Notes under the pieces: model-generated | Told to the model about the DNA's origin: nothing | What the model saw: the letters and a program-made list of their open reading frames with translations, nothing else | Database searches by the model: none | In this document: positions 1,265-49,300 of the stretch, piece by piece | Layout: every line of letters starts with the position of its first letter | Position numbering within the stretch: the stretch's first letter is position 1 | Position numbers and translations under genes: made by a program | NCBI GenBank assembly: GCA_033439265.1 | Contig: JAVTVX010000001.1 | Span: 17,130,608 to 17,194,607, forward strand | Source: Dillenia suffruticosa | Lineage: Eukaryota; Streptophyta; Magnoliopsida; Dilleniales; Dilleniaceae | Direction: 5' to 3' | DNA: 64,000 bases

Positions 1265-1323
<59 letters not shown>
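1265..1323. repeat. (CT)n microsatellite
   Basis: Uninterrupted CT dinucleotide run of about 29 units just downstream of the decayed dioxygenase exon. Confidence 0.95.
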
Positions 1324-1327
<4 letters not shown>

Positions 1328-1479
1328 GCAACTCTCATTGATTAGGATCTCCAACCGATCAGTCATCCCTAGCAGAGCCATCATCTACAGAGTGTGGACC
1401 CACCTCCAACAATTCCTATAACAATGGTGTGCTTATAGTGCCCATAGACATTAAGGAGCGGTGAACTAAAGGAGTAACT

Positions 1480-2155
1480 TCTGCAATTCCTCAGGTTTTG
1501 GAGAATTAGGAAACATAGGGCATATAAAGGTATCCCTCCTACTAGCGGCTGCAACTCTGAACAGATCGATGTTGGTCGAACTTCCTCTTTGGATCATCAT
1601 GGGAATAGAACTGTTTCTTTTTTTTTTTTTTTTTTTTGTTCATATTAAGGTAACTCGAGTTTATTACATGAGGAGGGGGAATGTGTCACTTGAACCAAAG
1701 TTCATTGGCGAATAGAACTGTTTCTTCACCTATGTATCTTGCTCAAAAAACCTTCTGACCCTATCAATCATCTCATCCAACACTTTTTGTGGGATCCCAT
1801 GATTCACCACCTGAAAGAAACCCCACTTTTCACAAGCATGCTTAACTTCTTGGACAACCTTGGCTCGCGAAATCTCGTCTTTGTTAACATTTTTGAGGTC
1901 TATGATTGGCATACTCAATTCTTTTCACCCAAAAAAAAAAAAAAAAATCCTCAATTCTGTTGGACTCAAGGAAAATGCATCTTCTCCAGGCTTGTCATTG
2001 TTTTGGATGAATATCTGTGGGAGCTTCGTTATTCCGGCATCTACAAGTCCCTTCACCTCAATTTTGGATTCATTGAAAGATTTCACTTCGCTTTCTCGAT
2101 CATCATCCGATTGATGAGATTGTGATAGAACTCCATCCGAGATTGTGACAACCAT
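1480..2155 (-). pseudogene. Decayed first exon of a 2OG-Fe(II) dioxygenase
   Basis: The minus strand from an ATG at 2155 encodes a protein like exon 1 of the intact neighbours: a stretch ending in FNESKIEVKGLVDAGITKLP, then [20 protein letters not shown], then [15 protein letters not shown] and [15 protein letters not shown] (the DIOX_N region). It cannot be functional. A poly(A) tract at 1931-1947 shifts the frame, a TAG falls right after FFEQDT, a retroposed segment (1620-1709) splits the following KKQFY/RD region, and the end (about 1496-1600) is out of frame and lacks the normal VCR/GT splice junction. Exons 2 and 3 are absent downstream. It is the 3'-most member of the minus-strand array. 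The long readable stretches suggest fairly recent death compared with the relic at 15253-15480. Confidence 0.85.
1603..1726 (-). mobile_element. Short SINE-like retroposon with 17-bp target duplication
   Basis: The 17-mer GAATAGAACTGTTTCTT occurs perfectly at 1603-1619 and 1710-1726. Between them are 90 bp (1620-1709) that read on the minus strand as a body of about 72 bp followed by a poly(A) tail of about 18. The body opens with GCCAATGAACTTTGGTTCAA, which includes an A-box-like TGGTTCAAGTG. No B box is obvious, so it is a short or internally deleted SINE. It interrupts the decayed dioxygenase exon. The exact duplication and tail make retroposition by LINE machinery very likely. Confidence 0.75.
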
Positions 2156-4910
2156 GCTGTGCGTTTTCACTTGTGAGAGAGTGAAATGTATTTGGCTATT
2201 TTTGACGTGATACAATTGTGCCTTTCTCAGAGAATCGTATAGAGCTGTGTAATGAATAATGCAGAACAAAAGACTACCACAATAATTGTACTATCTTAGA
2301 GGTAGGAGGAGACCAAGGCCACAACATTTTCTAAGATCATTGCCATCATTAGAAACAAACTGTGAAATGGTATATTAAATTTTTTAATTAATTTTTAAGT
2401 TCAAAATTTGGAATAAAAAATTTTATATCATAAAAGTCATTCCCTAAAAAAGACATTTAAATCGAATTAATCAAAATATAATTCTAAATACCCGTATGGA
2501 AACCAAAAAATCAACTTTAGAAACAATGAAAATCACATGTAACCATGTGACGCGGCAAAATACTGGGGTAAAAGATTAGTGCTAAACTGTATTCTAAAAA
2601 TTAAAAAAAAATAATAATCTAAAAACTTTTAGAAAGATACAAAAAAAATTAAAATCAATTGAATTAATTAAAAATGATGGACTTTATTTATATTGTGAAA
2701 ATATAATATACATGTACTAAAATTAACAAACTTATTAAGTAAATAATTTTTAAAATAAAAAGAAAATTCAAAAATTAAATTACTCAGTAAAAATTAATTC
2801 TCGAAAAGCAAAAACTTTTCGACTAACAATCCTCAATTCCAAAATAATAAAGAATCATCCGGGTCCCCCTCCTCACTCTGGATCTATTTGATAACAAGCG
2901 TTGGACATACTCTCTCTGCAGACTTTATCTTGGCGTCCACTTATTCTAAAAAACTTATCATTTTGATGTATATTGGATATTGCACTAATACTTCAAGGAT
3001 AAAACATCATTCATGTAATGTTGAAATCAAACACCTTCTCTGGATGCATTGCTTCTACCTCTTGTAATGACAAAAGATTTTGCAAATTCGTGGAATTGTC
3101 ATGTCATTATTCCATATTAAATATCTATGTTTGTGTTTCATAACTTTCCATTTTTCATGTACAGGAAATATCTTTTGGTTGACTAATGTCGGGAACTGAC
3201 GTCTCTTAACCATAGTCGGGAGTTCAATTCCCAATGAAAACAGAAAAATCAATGCTAAGAGACATGCCTCTCAATTGGACCCTGCAAGCGGTCGATCCAG
3301 ATTAATCAGAGCAAAACTCTAGATACTGGATTGATGATTTAGCCATAATATAAAAAAAATATATATATCTTTTAGTTGAAAGTACAAGGCATTTCTTGTG
3401 ATAGTGAGAAACCATAAATGGTGAATTCCCACAAGGAAAGTGTGGGGACGCGAACACGTTGGCGGTGCATGTGATTCGTTAATGTCGCTATATATGGCTG
3501 TGAGGGGCCGGCTGGACAAGCTACCTTACCCCAAGGGGCTGTAAGGCAAGCCAAGCAGCTTGAGCTGTATCTGAGTATTACTTGTCAAAATCCCAACAAA
3601 ATCTCGGCTATGCAACTAATTCAAAAACTTTGGTGGGATATGAATGATCTGAGAGAGTAGTACTTATACCAACAAGATATAGTTCAGCTTGTAACATATT
3701 CTTTCTGTTTAGACATCTTGAATTCAATTCTCTCTAAAGTATTAAAAAAAAAAGGATTAGACATAATGGGAAATTAAATATATATTTTGTAATGGGTGGA
3801 AAGTGTAAAAATATTGCCCAAAAGTAGCCGTGTCATGGTTTTAGCCCGTTGATTAGGATTGCAAAAGTGACGATTTTGGTTCCATGGTTAGAGGAACATG
3901 TTTACCTTGCTTCTACGACATTTGTGACTGGGACGGACATGCTCACCTTGCTTCTTCCTTTTTTGTTTTTTTGAATGTTTGGTTACATGCTTTTAGATCC
4001 AATTTCAAAATTGTTTCTTTCAGTTCTTTGAAAGAAGAAATTGAAACTAGAACCTTCACTTTCAAATTCTGTTCCGATTCAAAAATAGGAAGTCTTGCCT
4101 TGTTCTAGTTTTAGTTCCGGTTTCTACCCATTGAATTTCCAGTTCTTATAAAAATATTTAAAAAGACACTTCCTTGAAAATTTAAGATTTTGAACTCAAA
4201 TAAATAACAAAAATTTGAACTTACAACTTTTTTTTTAATAAACCATCTGTATTTAGTAATTATATTAAATTCAACTAAATTTAATTAGATTCAAATTAAA
4301 ATTTATGTTTTATTATACATAAAATTCGAATTCAAAAATTTACTTAAAAAAAATCCCAAGGACCGGCCACTGAGCTCACAACTATAAAAATAAAAGATTC
4401 ATAATAAGCCTAGTTTAACGCAACTTAACCCCACCTAGGCAACCCAACCCACACGAGGTTGTGCCCACCCAGTGAACAGACAGTGCCTCAACAAAAGTAT
4501 GTTCACCCCAAGCCTATCATTTTTCTTTACTAAGAATTTCAGTACATGATCCTTGGATCTAGAAAATGCACTCACATTGTTCTAATTAGACTTGCCAGAC
4601 CTAAATCAGCTGCCATTTCCATAGCTCCTGATATTACTAGTATACATCAGCACTTAGCAAGAATCTCACTGGGATTCAAATATCATTCAAATATATAAAA
4701 CCTTTGTTAAAACATGGATGCTACAACGTGCTTTGGTTTATCTAAACATTTATTACAACTCTTAATACAACATCGTCCATACTCCAAATTACCGCCTCGG
4801 ACATGCATACTGTCGGATCCTAATAAACACTAATTGATCTCCACACTAGAGCCTTATTTTATTACATTTCCATAGTATATAGATAGCACACAACACTATC
4901 AAGTGCAGAA
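2156..4910. other. Intergenic DNA with one SINE, no gene
   Basis: AT-rich spacer between the relic exon and the 3' end of the first intact dioxygenase. Apart from the tRNA-like element at 3170-3330 I see no coding or structured element. The stretch 3420-3560 is locally GC-richer but has no recognisable coding content. Confidence 0.5.
3170..3330 (+). mobile_element. tRNA-derived SINE (diverged)
   Basis: An A-box-like TTGGTTGACTAATGTCGGG (about 3175) is followed 45 bp later by a B-box-like GGGAGTTCAATTCCCA (3218-3233). The 3' part, GATTAATCAGAGCAAAACTC and onward, matches in layout the elements at 37810-37985 and 59555-59705. All three end in a GATTAATTAGAG-type motif about 75-100 bp after the B box, so they look like one SINE family. 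Confidence 0.5.
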
Positions 4911-7656
4911 TTACACCTTCTGCAAGCCATTTGCAGAAGATGAATTTGACAGCTTAAACTTTTCGAGTGCACGAATGCCATCAAGGCCTTTGGCGTAGAA
5001 GTGTGTCATGAACTCTTTCTCAGTGGTTTCCCTATAAATTGGAGGGTTCTCTTCTGATAAAAGCTCCTTAATTGGTCCATACACCTTAGGGTTAGGATCT
5101 AATTGAGAGCATGCTCTAAAAAAAACAGGCACCGAAATTCTCGGGCCTGCCTTTTGTGCGATAACTCTGTGCTTGACGCTTTGAAATTTATCGTTGGTGA
5201 TGAGCTGCAGAAAGAAGACAGAAACAAAATGATCAACTCACAGTCCACATTTTGTTGCATTATGTTAACCAATTGTTGCCCCTCATGGAAATTAACATAA
5301 GCTTAGATGTAGCAGAATCGAATAAAAAATATATAATAAAATAAATATAGACAGAGCGACTAGTTTTTGTTGTTCTTTTTAGACATTACCGTTGAGATCT
5401 CCACCTGTTGTGAAATATTTAATTTAAGTTATAATTTCTACTCTCAGAGAAAATCTACCACCATACCCTCATGTAGTGATCGATAGGCCACAAACCAAAA
5501 CCAAGACACTTGATTAATTACAACGTATGCACATTGAAACAAGATCAATAGCAGGAAGCTAAACAAAATTTCGAATGGATCAATTGCAATCCAATGCAAA
5601 TGCAGTCCTTCAAGGATGATGATTTTCTCTCTCTTCTCTTGATAAGTTTGAAGTTTAGGAGGTTTCACATGCAAGGCCTTTCGATTTAAAGTGAGGAGAC
5701 ATGACAGAAAACAGCTAAAAAGAAAAGGATATGCATGATTATATAACACTTGCCTGTAAAAGATCCCCAACATTGGCTACTAAAGCACCACGAACCGGAG
5801 GAACATCGATCCACTGATCTTGATTGAGCACTTGGAGGCCACCAATATCGTCTTGTAGGAGGAGAGTCAAGAAGCCAGCATCAGTATGGTTGGTGATGCC
5901 CCATGTTGATTCTGGCTCTGGACATGCAGGGTAGTAACTACCGAGAAAAAGAAGACCTCTTGCACAATCCAATTCCGTCAGGTAGTTGGAGGGAAGACCA
6001 AGACTCTCTGACATTAATTCTAATATGGTATGCGCAACCGCCATCAAGTGCGTCGAGGATTCAATCATCATATCTCTGCAAATTGATTAAGTGCATAGTG
6101 ATTAGTACATCACATCATCGAGTGTGATTTGGTAATGAACAAACGAGAAGACAACTTTGGCCCAGTACATTTAAAAGTCACAAGTAGCTTCTTCCAACAT
6201 CAAAATTACTAGGTGGAAATACAAAAGAATGAAATTTAGACCTTATGTTGTTCCAATATTCGTGTCATTCAACAATTGTAATTAAGAGACAAGCAGAGAG
6301 TGATCATTTGTCATTACAAAAATTATCATTGAGGGATTGACAAAATGTATCACAATGTTAATCCCTTTTAAGGTTAATAGTTTTATCAGTAGGAAAAATC
6401 AAAAACATTTTCTACAACAATTAAAACATCATGTGTGAGCTTCATCAAGTGTCATACGATACATTTATCTGCATATGATTGATTACTAAAAATAGAGCAA
6501 TGACACTTATCACCGTTTTTTTTATTTGTTTATTTCATTTTATTTTTATTTTTTTTCTCGATATTTCATCCAAAATCTGGGATTAAAATCTAGATTATTG
6601 TTATTGTTCCACACTCATCACCACCCCAAAAAATACTCCTCTCTTGTCTTTACTATCACCTTGAATCAATCATTAAAATATGAGAAAAACAAAATCCTTC
6701 TTCCTCAAATTATTGTTCAAACAAAAGTAGAACAATGAAAAAAAAAGCCACGCACACTCCTGACTTGATTTTATAATGACCCAAAATTATAAATCATAGT
6801 TTTCATTTGAAATTGGTAAAAGAAAACATTAGTGCTTTCACTTGCACCTTTTTTTTTTTTTTCCTTTTTTTGGGAGAGTACATTAATGGATACAAAATAA
6901 TGAAGTGCACAGCATGGCATTAATTATTAGTCCAAGAGAAATAGATATACCAAGAGAACATGAGCAAACCATAAAAGGAATTTTCTATTATCATAATGGT
7001 GGATTTAAAAAATTTTAGATGGTCAAGATTTATCGTGATTACAATTTTGTGAGTGTTGATAGTCATAGAATAAAAGAATAACTAAACATATGCACTCAAA
7101 TAAGATTTTTAATAAAATTAAAAAAAAAATAGTACCTGCAAACCTCAGGCAATTCCTCAGGTTTAGGAGGATTAGGAGCCATATTAGCCATAAAAGTGTC
7201 TCTCCAACTGGCAGCCTTCACACTGAACAAATCAAAATTGGAATTATACAGAAACTTCCTTGTCATATCTCTTGTATAATACTGTTTCTTAACCTCAGAG
7301 TCCTGTTCATAAAATCTACGAACCCCATCAATCATTTCATCCAAAACAGCCTGTGGAATCCCGTGATTGATCACCTGGAAAAAACCCCATTTTTCGCAAG
7401 CATCTCTGACCTCATCTACGACCTTTGATCGGCGAATTGCGTCCTTATTGATGTCTCCGAGGTCAATTACCGGAATCCCAGAATGGATTTGGTTGGTAGA
7501 TTTAAGGTCGAGTTTGTCGGTTTCGTGGACGAAGATTTTTGGGAGTTTTTCGATTCCGGAATCTACGAGACCTTTTACTCCGATTTTCGATTCGTCAAAT
7601 GTTTTCAGTTCGGTTTCTCGTTCGTAGTTCAGGACTGATTCGGCTGTTGCGCCCAT
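4911..7656 (-). CDS. 2OG-Fe(II) dioxygenase, ACC oxidase homolog type (copy A)
   Basis: Three exons: 7656-7136, 6075-5754 and 5204-4911, giving 378 aa, the normal family length. Intron phases 2 and 0 and a 322-nt middle exon are shared with both other intact copies. An N-terminal DIOX_N domain (about residues 60-165, with [15 protein letters not shown]) precedes the oxygenase core. The iron triad is H237-T-D239 and H293, and R303-I-S305 is the 2-oxoglutarate-binding RxS. The enzyme should be a soluble cytosolic oxygenase that uses O2 and 2-oxoglutarate to hydroxylate or desaturate a small molecule. Relatives in this DOXC group include GSL-OH and deacetoxyvindoline 4-hydroxylase. It is not a true ACC oxidase, and the substrate is unknown. 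Intron 2 begins with GC (CAG/GCAAGT) rather than GT. Exon 3 carries a C-terminal tail about 14 residues longer than in the sister copies, ending SSANGLQKV. Confidence 0.92.
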
Positions 7657-8424: not shown

Positions 8425-10670
8425 GGATAAGAATAATTTTTTCTATTTTTAAATTTTGAATTTAAAAATTAATTAAAAAATCTAATATTTTATCTTATTG
8501 GATCAATAGTTCATTGGTTAAATATTAAATAATTAATTTTTTAGTTTTATATCAATTTATATCTAAATTTATATTTTAATTAATTCAATCTAAGATTTAT
8601 GATAACCTATTTAAATGATTACCCTTTCAATAAGGCTCGTTCAATATTCATGTCGGGAGTTTAATTTAAAAATTTAATCAAAAAATCTAATATCAAGGAT
8701 GAAAAATTATTGGACAACAATCAGAGAGATCGGGTCAGCAGCGTGAAAGACCATGCAAAAGAGGAGCTTCTGCGGGTCGGTGGGCCCAGTTGCGACCTTA
8801 ACGTTGAAGTAAACCCCACAATTGACCAATGGACATTGACACTTTTCGGAAAAAGACAAAAATCCTCAGCGCAATGAAATGTTTTATGAATCTCACTTGT
8901 GTCCTTTGTTTTTTGGAGGACCCGCTGTATTTTTTTTTCATTCAGAACCCTACCATTTTTCGTATTTTTTTTATTCGAGTTCTTGTGCTTTTTTTTTGCC
9001 CGATTTCTTTTTTTTTTTCCACGTAGATCCTTTGTCTTTTAGAGAATCCCACTATATTTTCTTTTTTCATTTAGGATCCACTATTTTTGCATTCAAATTC
9101 TTCCACATTTTTTACCTTTTTTTTCATTTAGGTCTTTGTCTCATGAGAGACCCCACTATTTTTTTCATTTAGATCCTTATAATTTTTTTCACCTGCTTTT
9201 CTTTTCTTTTCATTTAGATCCTTCAACTTTTCTGGACTGCACTTTTTTAAAATATTTTTTTTACTTAGATCCTTCGTCTTTTAGGGACTTAAGTTTTTCT
9301 CCTTTTATTTTTTTAGCATCCACGGATGGTCGGCTTTTTATTTTTAAATCCTAACTTCTTTTCCTATCTAGGTCCTTACTATTTTTATTTTTTAACCAAA
9401 CTTTTTTTCCTCTTAAATTCTTCATCTTTATCAAATATACGTTTTTCTCTTTTAGATTTTTGAGTATTGTGGATGGTCGTCTCTTCATTTTTAAACTATA
9501 GTTTTTTTATTCAGATATTTACTCTTTTTATTTTTTTACACTATTTTTTTCCTTAAATCGTTCGTCTTTTTTAGACATAAGTTTTTCCCTTTTTGGGCTC
9601 CACTTGTCCATTTAGGTTCTTGATTTTTTTTATCCTTTTTTTTTAACTTTAGTTTTTCAACTTTTTTAAATATAGATTTTTTTTCCTTTTGTTTTCTTTG
9701 ACCCTATAGATAATCATCCATTTATTTTTGAATCACATTTTTTTATTATTTTCATTCGAATCCTTTTTTTAATATTTTAACCATTTTTTCTCTCTAAGTC
9801 CTTCGGTTTTTTTTTTAAATATTGATTTTTTCCCTTTGATTTTTTAGAACCCCACGGATAGTCATCACTTTATTTTTTACATTTTTACTCAACGTATTAT
9901 CCTTTTTTATCTCATTCGTTGGTTTTTTTTAAAGTTTTAGTGGTTAACTCTTTTTTTTTCTGGTCACCGATATACGTCATATTTTTCATTAATTTGGACA
10001 ATAATTTAATTTAGATATTGAGTTAATTATAAATTTAATAAATATTTATACGGTTAAAAAATGCAATCCATATTTTGTAGGCGTCCCATATGTTAGTGGA
10101 TCCGATCACTAGTTTTAATATTAAATGTCTTATTTGAAACTTTTTGATTCCATCGTTGTTTAATTTTCAAAATATTTCTAAAATATTTTTTATTTTTAAA
10201 ATATCCATTAAATTAATTAATACTTATATAAAAATCTTTATATTTGTTATATTTACATATTTTTCATATTTAATGAATTATTTGATTATTTAATTATAAT
10301 TTTTATTTTTATGATATTTTTCTTATAATTAATAATAACATATTTGATCATTTTAGATTATTATTATTATTATAAAATATAGTAATTTTATTTTTTATAA
10401 AATAATTAAAATTTATATTAAAAGTTTTTATATTTTTTATATTTACACATTTATCTATATTTTTATTTTCTTTATTTTTATAAAATATCTTTTTTTATAT
10501 CATTTTATATCTATTTTTATTTTTTTTGTTTTTGTTTCCATTCAATCGACCTTGTAATGAATCAATCATCATCATGATATTGCGTAATACTTGTAAAAAT
10601 TTTGTGTTTCTGTTACTATTACTTTATCTAGCAAGAATCTGAAATATATACTACAAAAACATTTATTAAA
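8425..10670. repeat. T-rich minisatellite unit, copy 1 of a 2.26-kb tandem duplication
   Basis: This segment and 10671-12770 are diverged direct copies. Anchors include GGGTCAGCAGCGTGAAAGAC (8732 and 10999), GACCAATGGACATTG, and the GGCGTCCCA(T/C)ATGTTAG motif (10081 and 12327), all offset by 2246-2267 bp. Inside, from about 8900 to 9960, the plus strand is almost pure pyrimidine and is built from degenerate units of about 35-45 bp around CATTTAGATCCTT, CTTTTAGAG and CCCACTATTTTT. The last third is AT-rich. Copy 1 has about 165 bp (about 10470-10635) lacking from copy 2. No coding capacity is credible. Confidence 0.85.
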
Positions 10671-12601
10671 GGGTGACTATAATTTTTTTTATTTTCAAAT
10701 TTTAAATTTGAAATTGATTAAAAATTTAATATTTTATTCTATTAGATCGATAGTCTATTGGTTAAATATTAAAAAATTAATTTTTTTGATTTTATATCGA
10801 TCGATATCAAAATTTATATTTTGATTAATTCGATTCGAGATTTTCATTTAAAAGATTATTTTTTTAATATAATTTATTTTATATCTAAATTACGAATCAA
10901 ATTTAAAATTTTATTTAAAAAATTTAAAATCATGTCTTAATAAATCAATCGATCGTTGTGAAAAGATAAAAAAATTATTGGGAAACATGAGAGAGAGTGG
11001 GTCAGCAGCGTGAAAGACCATGCAAAAGGGGAGCTTCCATGGGTCGGTGGGCCCAATTGCGACCTTAATGTTGTCTTTAAGTAAACCCCACAATTGACCA
11101 ATGGACATTGGCACTCTTTGGAAAAAGACAAAAATCCTCTGCGCGATGAAATGTTTTGCGAATCTCACTTGTGTCCTTTGTTTTCTTGGAGGACCCCGCT
11201 GTATATATTTTTTTTTTATTTAGGACCCTATCATTTTTTGCATTTTTTTATTCGAGTTCTTGTGCTTTTTTTTATCCGATTTTTTTTTTTTCATTTATAT
11301 CCTTGTCTTTTGGAGGATCCCACTATATTTTCTTTTTTCATCTAGGATCCACTATTTTTTTCGTTCAAATCCTTTCACCGTTTTTTGTCATTTTTCCGGT
11401 TGAATCTTTCACTTTTCGAGAGACCCCATTATTTTTTTCATTTAAGTCCTTATAATTTTTTTCACCTATTTTTCTTTTTTTTTTTCGTTTAGATCTTTCA
11501 ACTTTTTTGGACCGCATTTTTTTTAAACCTTTTTTTTTACTTAGATCCTTCATCTTTTAAGGACATAAGTTTTTTCCCTTTTGTTTTTTTATATCCACGG
11601 ATTATCATCATTTTATTTTTAAATCGTAACTTTTTTTTTCCTATCCAGGTCGTTACTACTTTTATTTTTTAACCAAACTTTTTTTCCTCTTAAATCCTTC
11701 GTCTTATTAAATATAGATTTTTCTCCTTTTGGTTTTTTTGAGACTTATGGATGGATTTTTTTATTTTTAAACTATAGCTTTTTTATTCAGATATTTGCTT
11801 TTTTATTTTTTTATACTATTTTTTCCCTTAAATCATTCATCTTTTTTAGATATAAGTTTTTCCCTTTTAGGGCCCCACTTGTCCATTTAGGTCTTTGGTT
11901 TTTTTATCATTTTTTTAAATTTACTTTTTTGACTTTTTTAAATATAGATTTTTTTTCCTTTTGTTTTCTTTGACCATATAGATAATCATCCATTTATTTG
12001 TGAACCATAGTTTTTTTTTTATTTTAACCATTTTTTCTCTCTAAAGTCCTGTTTTTTTTAAATATTGATTTTTTCCCTTTTATTTTTTTAGAACCTCACA
12101 GATGATCATCACTTTATTTTTTTACATTTTTACTCAACGTATTATCCTTTTTTTAATCTTATTCGTTGGTTTTTTTTAAAGTTTCAATGGTTAAACTCTT
12201 TTTTTTATATCACTGATATACGTCATATTTTTTACTAATTTAGACAATAATTTAATTTAAATATTAAGTTAATTATAAATTTAATAAATATTTATACAGT
12301 TAAAAAATGCAATCCATATTTTGTAGGCGTCCCACATGTTAGCGGGTCTGATCACTAGTTTTAATATTAAATGTCTTATTTGAATCTTTTCGATTCCATC
12401 GTTGTTTAATTTTCAAAATATTTCTAAAATATTTTTTATTTTTAAAATATTCATTAAATTAATTAATACTTATATAAAAATCTTTGTATTTTTTACATTT
12501 ACATATTTTTTCATATTTAATGAATTATTTGATTATTTAATTATAATTTTTATTTTTATGATATTTTTTATAATTAATAATAACATATTTGATCATTTTA
12601 G

Positions 12602-12634
<33 letters not shown>

Positions 12635-12770
12635 AAATATAGTAATTTTATTATTTTCATAACATAATTAATATTTATATTAAAATTTTTTATATTTTTT
12701 ATATTTACGTATTTACCCATATATTTTTATATTTGAAATGTATACTAAAAAAGGTATTTTCAAGAAAAAG
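10671..12770. repeat. T-rich minisatellite unit, copy 2 of a 2.26-kb tandem duplication
   Basis: Direct, diverged copy of 8425-10670 with the same order of anchors and the same internal pyrimidine-rich minisatellite (about 11200-12180). It ends with ATTTGAAATGTATACTA, which corresponds to ATCTGAAATATATACTA near the end of copy 1. A (TTA)n run (about 12604-12630) is expanded relative to copy 1. Divergence by many small length changes suggests the duplication is old. Confidence 0.85.
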
Positions 12771-15879: not shown

Positions 15880-18029
15880 TCACAACCTGAAATGTGAGAG
15901 TGTGGAGACCCCATCAAGTCCTTTGTGTAAATGTTGATCAATAAGTTCTTTAACCATTATATTTTTGTAAATCGGAGTATTTTCCTTTGATAGCAACTCC
16001 TTAATTGGCCCATAAACTCTGTCGAAAGTGCCTCTTATGAAACATGCCACTGAAATTCTTGGACCAACCCGCTCTGCCAACACTCTGTGCTCAACGCTTC
16101 TAAACTTGTCATTGGTGACAAGCTACGAAAATCAGGTTCAAAGAGCAATTTATGAGCAGAAAATTGTGCTTTTAAGAACTTCACTACCACAGGTTTCATA
16201 TAAGATCTTTGAGTGCAAGGACTTTTACCTGTAAGAGGTCTCCCACATTGACTACTAAAGCTCCGGGTATTGGTTGGACATCAACCCAATGATCCTTGTG
16301 GAGAACTTGGAGACCGCCTTGTTGGTCTTGCAAGAGAACAGTGATGAAAACAGTATCAGAGTGGGCGGTGAGTCCCAAAGTTAATTCTGGTTCAGGACAT
16401 GCCGGATAATAATGACCAAGAAGAAGCTGCCCTTCAGCACAGCCCATATCTTTCAGATGGTGAGGACTCAGCCCGAGAGCCTCTGATAACAGTTCAAATA
16501 GTGTACAACTCAAGGCTGATAGATGTCTGGAGTATTCTATGAGAATATCCCTGCAGATACATCAACTAGTCTTGGCATAATAAAGAAAAATGGCTTACAT
16601 TCGGGCTCTCATGTGGTGTGTAGAGAGTGAAAACTTCAAAATAATAAATTTTTAGAAAAAAAATGTGAATTCAATTAAAATTTTTAGAGAAAATTACTTT
16701 ATTTATTTTTAGAGATATAAATACTAATCTTTTTAAAAGAGAGAAATTTAATATGTACTTAGTATTAAAAAGAAAAATAAAATTTTATTTTTTAAAAAAG
16801 AAAAAATTTAATCAACATATTTAGAAGAAAGTATAAACTAAATTAATTTTACCATCTAACAAATTTCCATCTAACCTTCTAGCTCATATAACAAATATTA
16901 CCTTTGTTCAACAAAGGAAAAAAAGAAAAAAAAAATATCATGAGAGTAACATTTACTTCTTAAAATATTATTCTTATAATTTTTTTTCCCTTAACATTTT
17001 TGTTATATACCAAACAAGGTATAGAGAGAACTACTTAAATTGAATTCCACAATTATCAATCGGATAACTAAGCCGGTGGTCAAGAAAAAAATAAAAAACA
17101 TGTCAACCATTATGTCACAACCCGGAAACAAAAAAACACGCCATGTAACGGGTACAGAGCGAACTATTCTCTCGGCTTTTACTAAAGAAAAAAATAAAAA
17201 ACATGTCCTGAATGGGAAAATGGTAGAGCATCAATCAAGTAAAAGTGATCCGATTTGACTTGTATATGATTACATTCTCAAGTTAATGCTAATGGCAGCA
17301 GCAGGCCGGTGCTGTTGGGGGGGGGCATTCTTTTATGTTGGCTCCACCAATAGACTGCTGGCTCAGTGGCCCTGATGCTCCTCCAGGGCGAGGAAGAAAA
17401 GCATTTTCGTTCCCATGAGAGACTTGACTCTAAACTCGATAAAAAGCGTAAAAAGAACTGGAGAAATATGATAAGGTTGCTAGCACATACCTGCACACTG
17501 CAGGCAATTCTTCAGGTTCTGGTGGATGGGGAGCCATTTGACAATTTATACTATCTCTCCAATTAGCTGCCGGGGCTTGAAACAGATCAAAATTGCAAAA
17601 ATATGAAAACTTTCTAGAGAAATCACGCGAGTAGAACTCTTTTTTGGTTTCACTGTCCAGCTCATGAAATCTACGTACCCCGTCAATCATCTCATCCAAA
17701 ACACTTGACGGAATTCCGTGATTCACCAGCTGAAAGAACCCCCAATTCTCAGATGCTTCTCGGATTTTGTTGACAATATTAGCACGCCCGGTGGCATCCT
17801 CGTTGATGCCTTTCAGGTCTATGATGGGAATGCTATACTCGGAAGTGCCAGAATCTGACCCTGTTTTGAGATTTTTCTGGTTATGGAAGAATATGCGTGG
17901 AATGTTTTTAACATCACCATCTATGAGGCCCTTTACACCTGTTTTTGTATCATCAAAGGCTTTTAGTTCTCTTCTTCTATCATAACTGGATTCATTTCCT
18001 GCCTGCACTTCATCTCTGCTGATGACCTC

Positions 18030-18032
<3 letters not shown>
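15880..18032 (-). CDS. 2OG-Fe(II) dioxygenase, ACC oxidase homolog type (copy B)
   Basis: Three exons: 18032-17491, 16550-16229 and 16122-15880, encoding 368 aa, with intron phases 2 and 0 and a 322-nt middle exon. DIOX_N contains [16 protein letters not shown]. The core carries H244-S-D246 and H300 as iron ligands and R310-I-S312 for 2-oxoglutarate, so the enzyme looks active. It oxidises an unknown small molecule in the cytosol. All introns are GT-AG. The start codon at 18032 follows directly on a GA run (CT on the plus strand, 18034-18064), which would be transcribed in the leader. Intron 1 is 940 bp. Closest by eye to copy C. The array, shared exon lengths and one orientation argue for origin by unequal crossing-over. 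Substrate preference probably differs, since the residues after the HxD motif (TVFITVLL versus AGFLTLLL) vary among copies. Confidence 0.93.

Positions 18033-18033
<1 letters not shown>

Positions 18034-18064
<31 letters not shown>
18034..18064. repeat. (CT)n microsatellite in the 5' leader of copy B
   Basis: CT run immediately upstream of the minus-strand ATG at 18032, so the leader reads (GA)n next to the start codon. Confidence 0.9.
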
Positions 18065-18067
<3 letters not shown>

Positions 18068-18421
18068 AATATCTGTTGAACCAAAATAGGCGAGAACCAC
18101 CAAATTAAAAAAAGCAAGATAATGCCTGATTTTGGTCACTTCCCATAAGTGAACAACGCAAATGGCCGAACAAAATTAACCATAGTTATTAAACCCGGAT
18201 GACTCATCGGACCATGTCAACCTTCCACCAGTTTAGTGTACGGGTTGATTTACAAGATGGACCATTTATGCAACTGACTTGAAAAAACCCACAAGTCAAT
18301 ATGGGATAATCAGGAAACCATATGATCCGCAAGTTTTTATAAAAGGACTCTAATAAGATTTGGTATCAGAGGAGATGACTACTAGTACTAGTAGTCCACA
18401 TTTCATAGTTATTAGGCAATT
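18065..18421. other. Upstream DNA of copy B; possible small insertion
   Basis: No gene. The 11-mer CATAGTTATTA occurs at 18181-18191 and again at 18404-18414, bracketing 212 bp that start AACCCGGATGACTCATCGG. This could be the target duplication of a small dispersed element. A perfect 20-bp palindrome (GACTACTAGTACTAGTAGTC) lies at 18377-18396, just before the foldback element. Confidence 0.35.
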
Positions 18422-18430
18422 CCTTCAGCT

Positions 18431-19562
18431 GAGCTTTGTACAGATTTAACCTAAAAAATAAAAAAACAATTTAAAATAACTCAAACAAAAAAATATTTTC
18501 GTTTGTAATCCGTATTTATCAGGAGTTGAAAACGCGACGCAATGTGTCACGTCTTCAACCGTGACAAAGTCTCTAGAGAGAGAAGAGTCCACGGGGGAGG
18601 GAGAGAGAGGGGAGGAGCGCGGCGCGGGGGGGCGGAGGGGGGAGGGAGAGAGAGAAAGGGGAAGAGCGCGGGGGGCGAAGGGGGGAAGGAAAGAGAGGGG
18701 AGGGGCGTGGTGGGGTGTGGAGGGGGGAGAGAGAGAGAGATGGGAGGGCCGCAGAGGGGGGAGGGAGAGAGAGAAAGAGGGGAGGGCGGCGGGGGAGGGA
18801 GAGAGAGAAAGAGGGGAGGAGCGCGGCGGGGGGCAAAGGGGAAAGGAGAGAGAGAGGGGAGGGGCGTGCCAGGGTACGGAGGGGGGAGGGAGAGAGAGGG
18901 GGAAGGCCGCGGGGGGTGGAGGGGGGAGGGAGAGAGAGAAAGAGGGGAGGGCAGTGGGGGGTCCGTCGGGCTCCTCCTCTGTCTCTCTCTCCCTCCCCCC
19001 TCCGCCCCCCGCTCCTCCCCTCTGTCTCTCTCCCTCCCCCCTCCACCCCCGACTCCTCCCCTCTTTCTCTCCCTCCCCCTCCCCCCCTCCAGCCCCCCCG
19101 CCACGCTCCTCCCCTCTTTCTCTCTCTCTCCCTTCCCCTTCGCCCCCCGCAACCCTCCCCTCTTTCTCTCTCTCCCTACCCCGGCGGACCCCCCCGCCGC
19201 CCTCCCCTCTTTCTCTCCCTCCCTCCCCCTCCGCAGCCCTCCCCTCTCTCTCTCCCTCCCCCTCTGCACCCCACCGCTCTCCTCCCCTCTCTCTCCTTCC
19301 CCCCTCCGTCCCACCGCCACGCTCCTCCCCTCTTTCTCTCTCTCCCACCCCCTCCGCCTCCCCGCCGCGCTCATCCCCTTTCTCTCTCCCTCCCCCGCGG
19401 ACTCCTCTCTCTCTCTCTGGGGAGTTTGTTATGGGTTAAAGATACGACACAGTGTGTTGTATTTTCAACTCCCGATAAATGCGGGTTAGAAATGAAAATA
19501 TTTTTTCGTTTGAATTATTTTAAAAATTTTTTTATTTTTTAGGTTAAATTCGTACAAAGCTC
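18431..19562. mobile_element. Foldback Mutator-like (MULE) non-autonomous element
   Basis: The 9-mer CCTTCAGCT flanks the element perfectly at 18422-18430 and 19563-19571; 9 bp is the Mutator hallmark. The outer arms (18431 to about 18596, and about 19415-19562) are inverted repeats of about 150-165 bp starting GAGCTTTGTAC, with roughly 80-85% match by eye. Inside, the left arm (18597 to about 18965) is nine or so purine-only minisatellite units of about 35-48 bp (GGGAGGGAGAGAGAGAAAGAGGGGAGG followed by a GC-rich spacer, shown here only in part). The right arm (about 18975-19405) is a like array in reverse complement. The whole 1.13 kb is thus close to one hairpin. No transposase is encoded. 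Four or five long open frames here are by-products of the low-complexity purine/pyrimidine code. Confidence 0.85.
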
Positions 19563-19571
19563 CCTTCAGCT

Positions 19572-20940
19572 AGTCTATTTCACTAATACAATCCCACGAC
19601 AGCTTTCTTATAAATGACCAATAATCTACAACTACCCATATCTGATAATTACTCAGGCTTTTCCATGATTTTGAGAGACAGTTTTCGTTTATGATTTTGT
19701 TTGTTAGACCTTGATGTGACTTTGCATATGGATATATTACCTAGATTCTCAATAAATGACCTTTCCAAGGTGAAAAGTTTGTACCATCAAAATAGAGTGT
19801 TCTATTGATGGTTTAATCAAATGTATAAGAAAAAGTCATAAATCTCTTACTTTAAAGATGTCTCTTTAATGGAGCAGAACACTAACTCTGATACCACTTA
19901 TTGATTCCTATGACAATCAAAAAATGGGATTGAATTGGTTGTCTTTGATTGATCTCAATTCCTTAATCTATCTCCATTTAAATTCTAATTAATCCTATAG
20001 TGAATCTAGATATATGCAATATGAAATAAAAGTAAATGATACAGAAGCAAACCCAATTTTATAATGGGTTGGGTTTATACCTATGCCCAGTTCAACAAGC
20101 TGAAGTCTAACAATCTATTAGTTTTCCATTATGATGAAGAGTGACAAGTTCTAATCCAAACTGTTGACTACTTATTTTCTTAACCTGAAAATTCATTCGT
20201 TCAACAGAGATAGACTCTTAACTCTCACCAAATTATTTCACAAAACTAAGTATACAACACAACACAATTTGAAAACTCTCAGACGAATTTAAGTTTTTCA
20301 AAAACAAAGTTTTCTTCACTGAATTTATTTATAAAATTGTGTTATATTTGTTTCTTCAAAACCTGATGTATGTGCCCCTTTAAATTGAATTTTTCAACTT
20401 CCAAAATTTGCTATAAATCCACTAAATTACTAGTAAAAATTAATAATTTTTCTAGTTAATGTCCTGATTTTGTAGCGTTGGAATCTTTCCTGATTTCTTG
20501 AAATATTTCAGTTATTGTAATTCAAATTTAAAATTTGAACTTCCATAAACTCTTGTTTAAATTTATTTAGTCGTTGAATCTTGCAAAAAAGTCGAAATGC
20601 ACCCTGAAAATCAGCCTATGGATAGAATTTTTGCTGGAAAAATAGAATGACTAACTAAATTCTCACATATTTTTTTTCATCTTATTTTTAAGTTTTTACC
20701 ACCGTAAAGATTTAAATTTGTAATCATTCACACTTTTTTTAATATGTAATTTTTAAATTTGAACACACTAATCGCAGAAAAAAATATAATAGTCTGAACA
20801 TGTATAAATGATCAACTCATCCTTCCTAAAGAGCTGCCTATCTTTCTGAAACTTGAAATTTGTATTTCAATAAAAACTTTAAAATTTGATTCTCAACTGT
20901 TGAATTCTCAAAATGTGTATCTAATCATATTTTTTAAACT
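19572..20940 (-). mobile_element. Ty1/copia-type LTR retrotransposon fossil (5' part)
   Basis: On the minus strand the motif TGGTATCAGAG (plus-strand complement at about 19883-19897) is the usual initiator-tRNA primer site of plant copia elements. It directly follows an LTR-like end, and about 90 bp further on lie remnants of a gag start with FDGTNFSPWKGH. The LTR would lie to the right (from about 19904), but its outer limit is not resolved, so the end given is a guess. The element is broken, short and old. The foldback element at 18431-19562 abuts it and may have inserted into it. Confidence 0.45.
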
Positions 20941-20969
20941 AAGTGTAGTGCACAATCTACACTTAGTTT
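20936..20969. other. Perfect 13-bp inverted repeat, 8-nt loop
   Basis: AAACTAAGTGTAG and its exact complement are separated by TGCACAAT. It could mark the end of the neighbouring fossil or of a small foldback insertion. No terminator-like context is evident. Confidence 0.5.
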
Positions 20970-21299
20970 GTTGAGTTGGGTTTTCAATTTAAGAAAGGAT
21001 TTTATGTTTCTATAATAATTTCTATGAACCAGAATAACTTACCTCTATGGATTTTTTATCGTCTTTCTACTTTATAATAGACTCTGTTCTTTTACAATAG
21101 ATTCTAAACTCTCTCTGTGACAATTTTTACAATATCTCTAAGTCACCATACTTTTGATTTTATAAAAAAATCATTAAATTTTATGATACTTTTATGATAA
21201 TCTCTTTATCATTTCTAGGGAATTTTTATAAGAATTTTCAAATGAGATTTAACATGCACCCTTAATACAAAAATTAAAATAATATGAAAAGATTTATTA

Positions 21300-23271: not shown

Positions 23272-24514
23272 TTAGAGCCTGAGATGCTGGAGGGAAGACA
23301 TCCCATCTAGCCCTTTCGCATTGAAATTGGCAACATAGTCTCTAATGGTGGTCGCTCTGTACTTTGGAGGATCATCATCCGACAACAATTCTTTAATGGG
23401 ACCGTAGAGTTTTGTTGATGGTAGAAGAGCGGTACTAAAGAAACAAGCCACCGAAACTCTTGGACCCTTAGAATTTGCCAGTACTCTATGTTCCACGCTT
23501 CTAAACTTGTCATTTGTTATGAGCTGAAACATCAAATAACGTGTAGTCAGTGCCCTACCTTTACGATTTACACTTCAATGCAAAGCACTTACCTGCAAAA
23601 GATCTCCAATATTGACAACCAGGGCTCCATGAACTGGAGGGACATCAAACCACTGATTTTCATGAAGGACTTGAAGGGCCCCAATTTCATCCTGAAGTAG
23701 CACTGTGAGGAAGTCATTGTCAGCATGTTTCGTAGTGCCCATAGTCAGTTCTGGCTCTGGGCAGGGTGGATAATAATGGGAGAGCAGAATAAGCCCCTCT
23801 CCGCAGTCCATGTCATTCAAATGATTAGGATTTAGACCAAGAGCCTCTGACAACAACTCAAACAAAGCAAACCCCAGCCTTTGTATCTGCTTCGAGTACT
23901 CAATAAGTACATCCCTACAAGTTTACAAAATCAGCTTCGGAAACTGAACCAATAAATGGACAAATTTGTCAAATATATTGATCACAAAACCTGCAAGCAG
24001 CTGGCAACTCCTTTGGCTTGGGAGGATGAGGAGCCATAAGGCAATAAAGGGTATCCCTCCAATTAGCTGCCGGTGCACTAAACAAATCAAAGTTGCAATT
24101 AAAGACCACTGGTTTAGTGTACTCACGTGTGTAGAACCCTTTCTTCACCTGAAGATCTTGCTTATTAAATCGACGAACTCCATCCAACATTTCCTCCAAA
24201 ACATTTACAGGAATCCCATGATTGACCACCTGAAAGAAACCCCATATCTCTGATGCTTCCTGGACTCTCTTTACAATCTCCTTTCTCAATACAGGATCAT
24301 TGTTGATGCCTCCAAGGTCTATCACTGGTATACTAAATTGACTGTTGCAAGTGTCTGACTTCTTCTCGAATTCATCTGGGGGTTGCATGAATATCCGAGG
24401 AACTTTTGTTACCCCTGAATCAACGAGTCCTTTAACTCCTTCCTTGGATTCATCAAATGCTTTTAATTCACTCAGCCGATCATAATTATCCAGAATTTCA
24501 CCAGAGTTCACCAT
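23272..24514 (-). CDS. 2OG-Fe(II) dioxygenase, ACC oxidase homolog type (copy C)
   Basis: Three exons: 24514-23991, 23914-23593 and 23523-23272, encoding 365 aa. Introns are tiny here (76 and 69 bp), in phases 2 and 0, all GT-AG. DIOX_N contains [16 protein letters not shown]. The iron ligands are H238-A-D240 and H294, and the 2-oxoglutarate motif is R304-V-S306, so catalysis should be intact. Position 239 is Ala where the other copies have Thr or Ser, a normal variation of HxD. It ends [14 protein letters not shown], close to copy B. It is the 5'-most member of the minus-strand array and the one nearest the HR-lesion gene. A soluble oxygenase of specialised metabolism is inferred; the substrate is unknown. 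Confidence 0.93.
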
Positions 24515-46300: not shown

Positions 46301-49300
46301 ATCAAAGCTCCAAGGACTGATCATCTTTTTTGGGAGCTTGATTAAGATTATTGGAGTTAATAATGGAGGAGTACTGCTCATGAGTACTGTGGCAGTGCTT
46401 TTCCTGCAGCAAGATGCTTATTTCTTTATTTTATTTTATTTTATTTTTTTTGAAGTTTATTAGTTTAGTTAGAAATTATTATTGGTGTCTAGTTATTAAC
46501 TAAGTTCTTATTCTTCTTCTGCTTTTTTTTTGGTTACTTGTTAGCTTAGGAGTATTTAGGAGTTTATAAATGTTGGTCTGGTTTCTATTTTCCTAAGATT
46601 AATTGTTTATTTAGAGGTTTGTAACCTTATCATGAAGCAAGTTGAATAAAAATTTCAATTTCTCAGAAAAATTTTTTTGCTCAAACCCTAGAAATTTTTT
46701 GCTTTCTTGCCGGGTTTGTGATGCTAGAAACGCTATCTTTCTATTTTCCTTTTAGCTTGCCTGCTGCAGATTGTTCCCAGATAAGTATTTTGAGTATATT
46801 CAAAATTATGTGATATTAAGCTTGCCTGCTGCGGATTGTTCCCAGATAAGTATTTTGAGTATATTCAAAATTATGTGATATTTAGCTTTAAAGAAACCAT
46901 AATCCGTTTTCATGTTCAGTCGGTTTCTCATGCAGTCCAAATTCTCCATAGCTATTTATGAATGGCTACCTCCATGTTGTTCATTTTTAACAAAACGCAT
47001 GGTTATGCTTACAGCATTATTTTGCTTTCTTAGCAAATTCCTAGATTTTTGTTTGGGGGGGGGGAACTTTTATTATTGCCTTTGAGCATTTCCATCCCTG
47101 ACAAAAGGTTGGTCTTCCCATGTTCAGGAGCACATTGAATGATAAAAATTTTATCCATCTCTTTCTATGCATGTTATAATGTACTACTCAATTCATTCTG
47201 AAATTCTTATATCGGATTGAGGAACTTTCTCAAACTTTCCTTGCATAGTATGATTGTTTTTATTTATTCCTGGTTGAATGGCCAAAAAGTTTGATGTCAT
47301 CTAGTTGGTCTTTTTGGGGTCTGTAAATAATTTCTTTGAATGCCATCCAGTTAAGCAGGAGACTTTCAGATTGACTGAGCAGAGGTCTCTCAATTCCCAG
47401 ATCTGTTATCCTTTTCAATAGATCAATGTGGGAAACAGGCTTTGAAAATGTTTAAAACAGGGGATGGGAACATCTCTGGAGAAGGTGGTTGCTGCGAATG
47501 GTGCTTCAAGCAGTGTAGGAGGACTGCAATAGGGTACCAGGGATACAGTTTGGAAGGAAATCAATGGTTGGCAAGTTTTTGATATAAGCTCTAGTGCAGG
47601 ATCTAGTCACATGATACTCTATAGGAAAATTCTCTCTTCCCTTGCTAGAGTTTTTCCCTCCCTTAGACCCTATGATTGTAGTCTGGAAACATGTTCCCTA
47701 CCAAGTTTCCTACCGCTGTTCTTTTAAGGAAATTAGACTTGTTTCTTATTTATTGTACCCCTTTAAATAAGGGAAAATAGGGTTTATAATAGAATAGGTT
47801 TCCTACTAAATCAAACTCCTAAAATTAAGAATTCCAAAAATAAGAAAACTACTATTCTAAAGAGATAACTATCGACTATTAAATATTCTTCTAGAATATT
47901 TCTTTCCTATGAATGCATCGTGCATATCAGTTTTCTCTTCTAAGGATGAACACAATAAGTGCTGATTTTCTCTTGGTAGACGGAATAAGTGATGTAAGTC
48001 CCTTGAGTCATGGTATATATTTATCGCCAGGGATGAATAAGTTCTGGTGAGTCCTTAAATGAGATTGTCTTCGGTGAGGCCTGAGGGTCTTGAGACTTGG
48101 GAGTTAGAAGCTTCTTATTACCAGTGAGGAGGTTTGGAAGCAAAAGAGGTTGGGTGTTTTTTAATATTAAATCTTTCCTGAGGACTTTGGCTAAGCAGAG
48201 GATAGTGCATTAAATCTCCGTGAAAGAGTTGTTGGAATTCAAGGGCTTTAATTTTTTTTTCCTGCTTGAGAGTTTCATAGAAGAATGTTGTAGCTTAAAC
48301 TGGAGTTGGACTTTTGCACAGGGTGTTGACTTTGAAATGGTAAATCATACATCTCTTGATAAACTGGCATAGGAGATTGTCTAATCTAACTGCCTAAGTT
48401 AATGGTTTACTTTTTTGGCTTGGGGGGGGGGGGGGGGTTGGGAACTGCAGGCTTAAAGAAGTGTGCTTTGACATGCCAATAGCGAAACCTTTTTGTAATT
48501 ATGGTTTGCTCCAGCTCCTTTTTAAATGGTTTGGAGGGGAATAAGGTGAGAACTTTTAATGATGAATACTCTCTTTAGGAGTGGCTGGGATCCTCTTCCA
48601 CCTTTATGAAAAGTCTTTTCTCCCCGCAGGTTGAAAAGTACATTTTTATTGAACTTTGTGAAACAACTTCTCTTGCACATTCAATAGTCTTTTCATATAA
48701 GAGGATCTAACCTACCCCTTAGGTTAGTAAACTCACTCAAATATTTTGGTGACTATAGATTTTGTTGGTACCTGTCTCCATTGTAATTTGTTGCACTTCT
48801 TTGGTGCTTTAATGGCTTTTTCTTGTTAAAAAGGGTCATGTAATTATATATGATGCTGTTAATGGGTGACTGGCATTTTGCTTTTAATTCTTGAATTGAT
48901 GTTTAGCAATGTCTATCTTTGCCACTTACCACTTGCCACCAGCTACTGATTGAAGGTATTTTTAAATGCCTTGGATCCATCTGGATTGGATTAAGGAATC
49001 GTCATTAGTGCTGATAAGTGAATAGATTGGTATTGTCCTTGATTTCCAACAGTCTGTTGCAAATCAGGAGGTCAAGTAGGCTGTTAACTCCTGAAAGGTG
49101 CGTTGAGTGTGCTGGTATTTTCAAATGCAGTGCTGTTATTTTCAAATGCATATCACCTCCTGGTTTGAGAATGAAATGTGGAAAAAAAACCTTAAGGAGT
49201 GGAATAGAGAAATGCATGTTAAATGCACTTATAACGGGGTTCAATTATCAGAAACAGAATTCCCCAAAAACTGGTTAATAGACAGTATTCAAATAAAAAT

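Follow-up and report, generated by a model that had tools for sequence, protein, structure and literature searches.

The element at 18431-19562 of the window (the whole 64-kb stretch of Dillenia suffruticosa DNA analysed here) is, with a probability of about 90%, a non-autonomous foldback Mutator-like element (MULE), a member of a dispersed family that comprises at least two subfamilies, A and B. This type of transposon is well known; GC-rich purine/pyrimidine arms running across a family look unusual, and the distinguishing trait of the family is the GC-rich, strand-asymmetric arrays common to its two subfamilies.

Anatomy of the element and its insertion site

The element, 1132 bp long, was flanked on both sides by a perfect 9-bp target-site duplication (TSD), CCTTCAGCT, as proposed in a sequence-only reading of this DNA (Table 1). 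That reading had also described inverted ends of ~150 bp, and the two outer arms, each beginning GAGCTTTGTAC, indeed aligned with 82% identity. Because its arms are only 82% identical, the window copy is considered old. Between the arms, the opposed arrays of nearly pure purine and pyrimidine that had been reported were recovered at 374 and 434 bp (89.6% versus 11.1% purine), abutting at 18966/18967, and the claim of GC richness agrees with the 71.7% GC of both arrays. Among 374-bp windows outside the element, across the 64 kb, the maximum purine content was 66.0% and the minimum 25.9%. The inverted-repeat relationship between the two arrays goes beyond shared composition: their inverted alignment scored 422, versus 171 +/- 10 (maximum 198) for 200 dinucleotide shuffles. 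The suggested unit of about 40 bp holds loosely. TRF listed 15 rows within the element, eight of them with periods of 33-44 bp, and the other periods were 16, 20, 48, 53, 80, 123 and 159 bp; 'about 40 bp' is therefore a fair but loose description. Open frames occur within the arrays, and an Rfam scan of 17000-21000 gave 0 matches.

Table 1. Positions of the element's parts and of the neighbouring gene in the 64-kb window
Feature	Position	Strand	Evidence
Neighbouring 2-oxoglutarate/Fe(II) dioxygenase, open frame from ATG (18032-18030)	17430..18032	-	Pfam PF14226 DIOX_N, E 1.5e-21
Left target-site duplication CCTTCAGCT	18422..18430	.	Sequence; 9/9 match at element edges
A-rich left outer arm (inverted), terminus GAGCTTTGTACAGATTTAACC, containing two nested palindromes	18431..18580	+	Matches at 33 other loci; alignment of 56 arms (28 copies)
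Arm palindrome, family consensus TTGAAGACGCGACACA/TGTGTCGCGTCTTCAA	18526..18558	.	At least 370 places in the genome with up to 3 mismatches; none for the reversed pattern
Purine array (89.6% purine, 71.7% GC) of units loosely 34-44 bp long	18593..18966	+	32-base unit at at least 346 genome sites
Pyrimidine array, inverted counterpart, 11.1% purine, 71.7% GC	18967..19400	+	Inverted alignment score 422 vs 171 +/- 10 shuffled
Right outer arm (inverted); GAGCTTTGTACGAATTTAACC is its terminus in the inward direction	19413..19562	-	Left-end matches; arm alignment
Arm palindrome, right copy, diverged	19436..19468	.	Sequence; alignment of arms
Right target-site duplication CCTTCAGCT	19563..19571	.	Sequence; random-offset comparison

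A dispersed family with two subfamilies

We searched the genome (596 Mb, 37 contigs) with the 159-base left end of the element and obtained at least 42 scored matches, which correspond to the window and 33 other loci; the search is a lower bound, with 294 candidates seen and 40 scored. The expected further copies, sharing both ends and 9-bp duplications, were thus found. Under fixed pairing rules, both arms were identified at 27 of the 33 loci (L012, L027, L028, L036, L040 and L041 stayed unpaired), and the terminal inverted repeats are shared among family members, as is characteristic of MULEs. In the 28 paired subfamily-A copies (window included), with a slack of +/-2 bases per edge, TSDs matched at 8 or more of 9 bases in 19 copies, versus 0.5% of 5600 random-offset controls; the match was 9/9 in 10 copies, versus 0.000 of the 5600 controls as printed, and below 8/9 in the remaining 9. 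Chance is excluded as the source of these duplications. The window copy and the family accordingly carry TSDs of the MULE kind (8-10 bp). With the joined flanks of the window copy as a query, no paralogous empty site was found in its own genome; the query matched the two flanks of its own locus and gave ten short partial one-flank matches elsewhere.

GC-rich purine or pyrimidine stretches (100 bases, GC >=58%, purine >=75% or <=25%) were present at all 33 other loci, and both kinds at 29 of them; purine stretches were missing from L018 and L028, and pyrimidine stretches from L036 and L040. The left part was the purine-richer one in 28/28 paired copies, the left part of L018 being just 14 bases long. 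Taken from either end towards the centre, arrays of >=100 bp were at least 80% purine in 50 of 53 cases in subfamily A (all except L010_R, L013_R and L021_R) and in 14 of 14 in subfamily B; the boundary was set at the purine maximum, which favours a high-purine result, and three short A arrays were dropped. Across the 28 paired copies, inner length ranged from 373 to 1545 bp with a variable purine/pyrimidine boundary, and arm length differed both between ends and between copies, as in foldback elements. Three loci (L013, L041 and L052) may be composite, having more than one purine/pyrimidine switch or extra arm pieces. A terminus scan yielded 14 further A-end stretches, 10 of which had arrays near the end by a stricter rule (GC >=60%, purine >=80% or <=20%); L042, L044, L048 and L053 had no nearby array, and L044 has one ~6.5 kb off. 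A conserved centre was considered as a family-wide feature and rejected: a junction motif was present in 11 of 28 A copies (the window among them) and 0 of 7 B copies, and is therefore not family-wide.

Subfamily B has outer ends unlike those of subfamily A, yet it too has arms of purine/pyrimidine arrays and 9-10-bp duplications. Among loci chosen by the palindrome (L056-L063), 8/8 contained both kinds of array. Flanks of the seven complete loci, read by eye with no control (L063 is cut and was left out), showed a perfect 9-10-bp TSD in L056, L057, L061 and L062, and a TSD with one mismatch in L058, L059 and L060. L056, whose TSD is a perfect 10 bp and whose halves share 97% identity across 512 aligned bases (57 gap positions), is probably a young copy. 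Five more loci were picked by paired B ends (L064-L068); arrays were present in four, and TSD quality, again read by eye with no control, was mixed. The TSD was perfect in L064 (CAATTTTAG; 4085 bp with a long insert within) and in L068 (CTCTTCTTC, of low complexity), 9/10 in L067, 8/10 in L066, and offset by one base in L065, a 265-bp copy without long arrays. As separate observations, the L064 insert (1305-3804) is 78-81% identical to L054 1823-4122 and 5856-6201 and is possibly a nested repeat, and an arm-like stretch, GACGCGACAGGTTATGTCGCG, lies at L065 386-501, just outside the 265-bp copy, perhaps as part of a neighbouring element.

Genome-wide pattern counts, which refer to pattern sites and not to confirmed array-bearing elements, gave at least 48 sites for the subfamily-A terminus (23 bases, <=1 mismatch), at least 362 for the subfamily-B terminus (19 bases, <=1 mismatch), at least 346 for the array unit (32 bases, <=3 mismatches) and at least 370 places for the arm palindrome (<=3 mismatches), with 0 for the reversed-pattern control in each case. 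The palindrome count suggests ~185 copies, if two palindromes make one copy.

Origin of the arrays and evolution of the arms

The purine array had been presented as something that this copy 'has become', a claim that fails because arrays are common to 33/33 other loci and to subfamily B. A local minisatellite or microsatellite expansion in one ordinary MULE copy, with a polypurine interior arising by accident, would fit the GA/GGGA-rich composition of the arrays and the other (CT)n microsatellites in the window, but is highly improbable given this recurrence of GC-rich arrays in both subfamilies; moreover, when the left array of the window copy was aligned in turn to the left arrays of 7 subfamily-B copies, it scored well above the 50 shuffles made for every comparison. 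An assembly artefact is about as improbable: misassembly of long inverted GC-rich repeats is in general possible, but the architecture is repeated at many loci and on many contigs, with locus-specific duplications and variable lengths. For the family we infer that the common founder of the two subfamilies would already have had arrays, and that their length would have changed through gain and loss of units. A MURA-type transposase, supplied in trans, would bind the arms, cut the element out and reinsert it through a 9-bp staggered cut. Once an element has inserted, its arms would diverge from each other.

The relationship between the two arms of an element bears on concerted evolution, in which gene conversion or hairpin copying would keep the arms alike, at least when they are young. 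The nearly identical halves of L056 are consistent with such homogenisation, and so is the identity of outer arms, which is higher within than between elements in subfamily A (0.84 vs 0.79) and in subfamily B (0.93 vs 0.88). When arrays were split at the purine/pyrimidine boundary, an element's own opposite array was the best match in 6 of 14 B cases on the score per base and in 4 on the raw score, where chance would give an estimated ~1 of 14; its median rank among 13 was 1. In subfamily A, however, the own opposite array was best in only 1/50 cases per base and 2/50 by raw score, and the own opposite outer arm was nearest in 9 of 56. An earlier test with a midpoint cut, now superseded, had found the own array best in 2/14 B and 0/56 A cases; it is the weaker test because the purine/pyrimidine boundary is often off centre. 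Homogenisation within elements is thus not seen in the older subfamily A and is partly supported in subfamily B: the arms of old copies are not specially alike, and the B result leaves room for the process at or near the time of transposition. In view of the boundary-split result in B (6/14), we raised our estimate for homogenisation from a slim chance to a tentative possibility, still well short of even odds.

Compensatory change in the arm palindromes showed no clear excess, with 12 pairs versus 14.0 +/- 2.4 shuffled in the first palindrome and 18 versus 12.9 +/- 2.7 (maximum 22) in the second, and there is therefore no clear sign of post-insertion selection on them. Methylation-type decay was also considered and rejected, as C-to-T change differed little with context (0.165 in CpG, 0.18 in CHG and 0.20 elsewhere).

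Classification, possible roles and genomic surroundings

One locus from the A-terminus scan, L048, contains an element of 6122 bp with related ends and a perfect 10-bp TSD, CTAGAAATTC (L048 3588-9709). Its translation, with stops as X, matched the MULE domain PF10551 at E 3e-6 and 28.0 bits, just over the cut-off of 27.6; when the open frames were scanned one by one, none had a Pfam hit at 0.01. Compared with the arm consensus, the right end shows 78% identity across 136 bases and the left arm 74% across only 106, and the scan for array stretches found no purine or pyrimidine arrays in L048. L048 is best described as a decayed relative with related ends and not as a proven helper; it or a kindred element may have moved the family. 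The proposed membership among the MULEs is supported by the TSDs of the family together with the related ends, 10-bp duplication and marginally scoring transposase domain of L048. A plant mobile domain (PF10536, E 1.4e-11) is also present in L048, downstream of the transposase region.

Long inverted tandem-repeat arms able to fold back, the mark of foldback elements, are found here in the arrays, the outer arms and the predicted RNA fold of the element, which is one long hairpin of -916 kcal/mol (computed with no shuffle control). At 1132 bp the element is long for a miniature element (MITE), and one copy in the family, L065, is short (265 bp) and free of long arrays. Foldback elements with repeats in their inverted arms include SoFT, Tnr8 and Drosophila FB.

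The nearest described families are Tm1, FARE and MuTAnT. According to the excerpted description of Tm1, a Mutator/Foldback family of the nematode Meloidogyne, its TSDs are 8-10 bp (mostly 9 bp), its composite terminal inverted repeats (TIRs) have tandem units variable in number and unequal between ends, and MITE-like members occur along with members carrying a Mutator-type transposase (PMC3169594). The present family is similar in its 8-10-bp TSDs, its unequal tandem-unit ends and, if the decayed relative L048 is counted, its members with and without transposase. The Tm1 units are 13-15 bp with a purine-rich motif of 12 bp in the same excerpt (PMC3169594), whereas units here are loosely 34-44 bp and whole arrays, unlike that 12-bp motif, are ~90% purine and 72% GC. 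FARE of Arabidopsis comprises foldback elements, now classed as MULEs, whose two ends both bear long palindromic repeats (PMC4486113), and the present family, compared with it by description, is likewise a plant foldback element with long end repeats; the excerpted account of FARE makes no mention of GC-rich polypurine arms such as those seen here (PMC4486113). MuTAnT of Medicago is also a foldback family of MULEs; it has 218 copies, modular TIRs and an element encoding a mudrA-like transposase (PMC4486113), and the present family resembles it in type and in having a decayed transposase-bearing relative. The MuTAnT element that was discovered first is 292 bp long, its TIRs being 144 bp; MuTAnT prefers TA microsatellites, and its excerpted description, unlike ours, does not mention long arrays (PMC4486113). 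Searches confined to open-licence papers listed no MULE family of plants whose arrays are polypurine and GC-rich.

Predicted motifs of the G-quadruplex type numbered 5 in the purine array (plus strand) and 6 in the pyrimidine array (minus strand), compared with 3 and 3 elsewhere in the 64-kb window. Read-through transcription of the element would yield a long hairpin RNA that could feed siRNA silencing. It is unlikely, and less probable in our estimate than homogenisation, that the GC-rich polypurine arms are selected and functional (e.g., as triplex, G-quadruplex or hairpin DNA) and not passenger repeats. Arms under selection would explain why both subfamilies keep arrays with the purine strand reading inward from each end; if functional, they might aid excision, keep young arms alike or alter silencing. 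The family constitutes a dispersed natural set of long strand-asymmetric purine/pyrimidine hairpins, with at least 370 arm palindromes in one genome. It thereby offers a test of how foldback transposons acquire their repeat arms and retain them, of whether young arms homogenise, and of whether such hairpin DNA is unstable or feeds siRNA pathways.

The edge of the window element is 399 bp upstream of the start codon of the neighbouring dioxygenase gene, which is outside the element. Four repeated segments of the window (1483-1860, 7149-7424, 17504-17779 and 24004-24279) apparently belong to 2-oxoglutarate/Fe(II) dioxygenase genes arranged in a tandem cluster; frames around 17504-17779 and 24004-24279 contained DIOX_N, and 2OG-FeII_Oxy was detected at 5739-6086. 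A direct duplication with a spacing of ~2.24-2.28 kb occupies AT-rich DNA at 8476-12744, parts of which show T-rich strand asymmetry (AT skew -0.46 and -0.41). At 46751-46880, the window contains a 65-bp tandem duplication whose copies are 97% identical.
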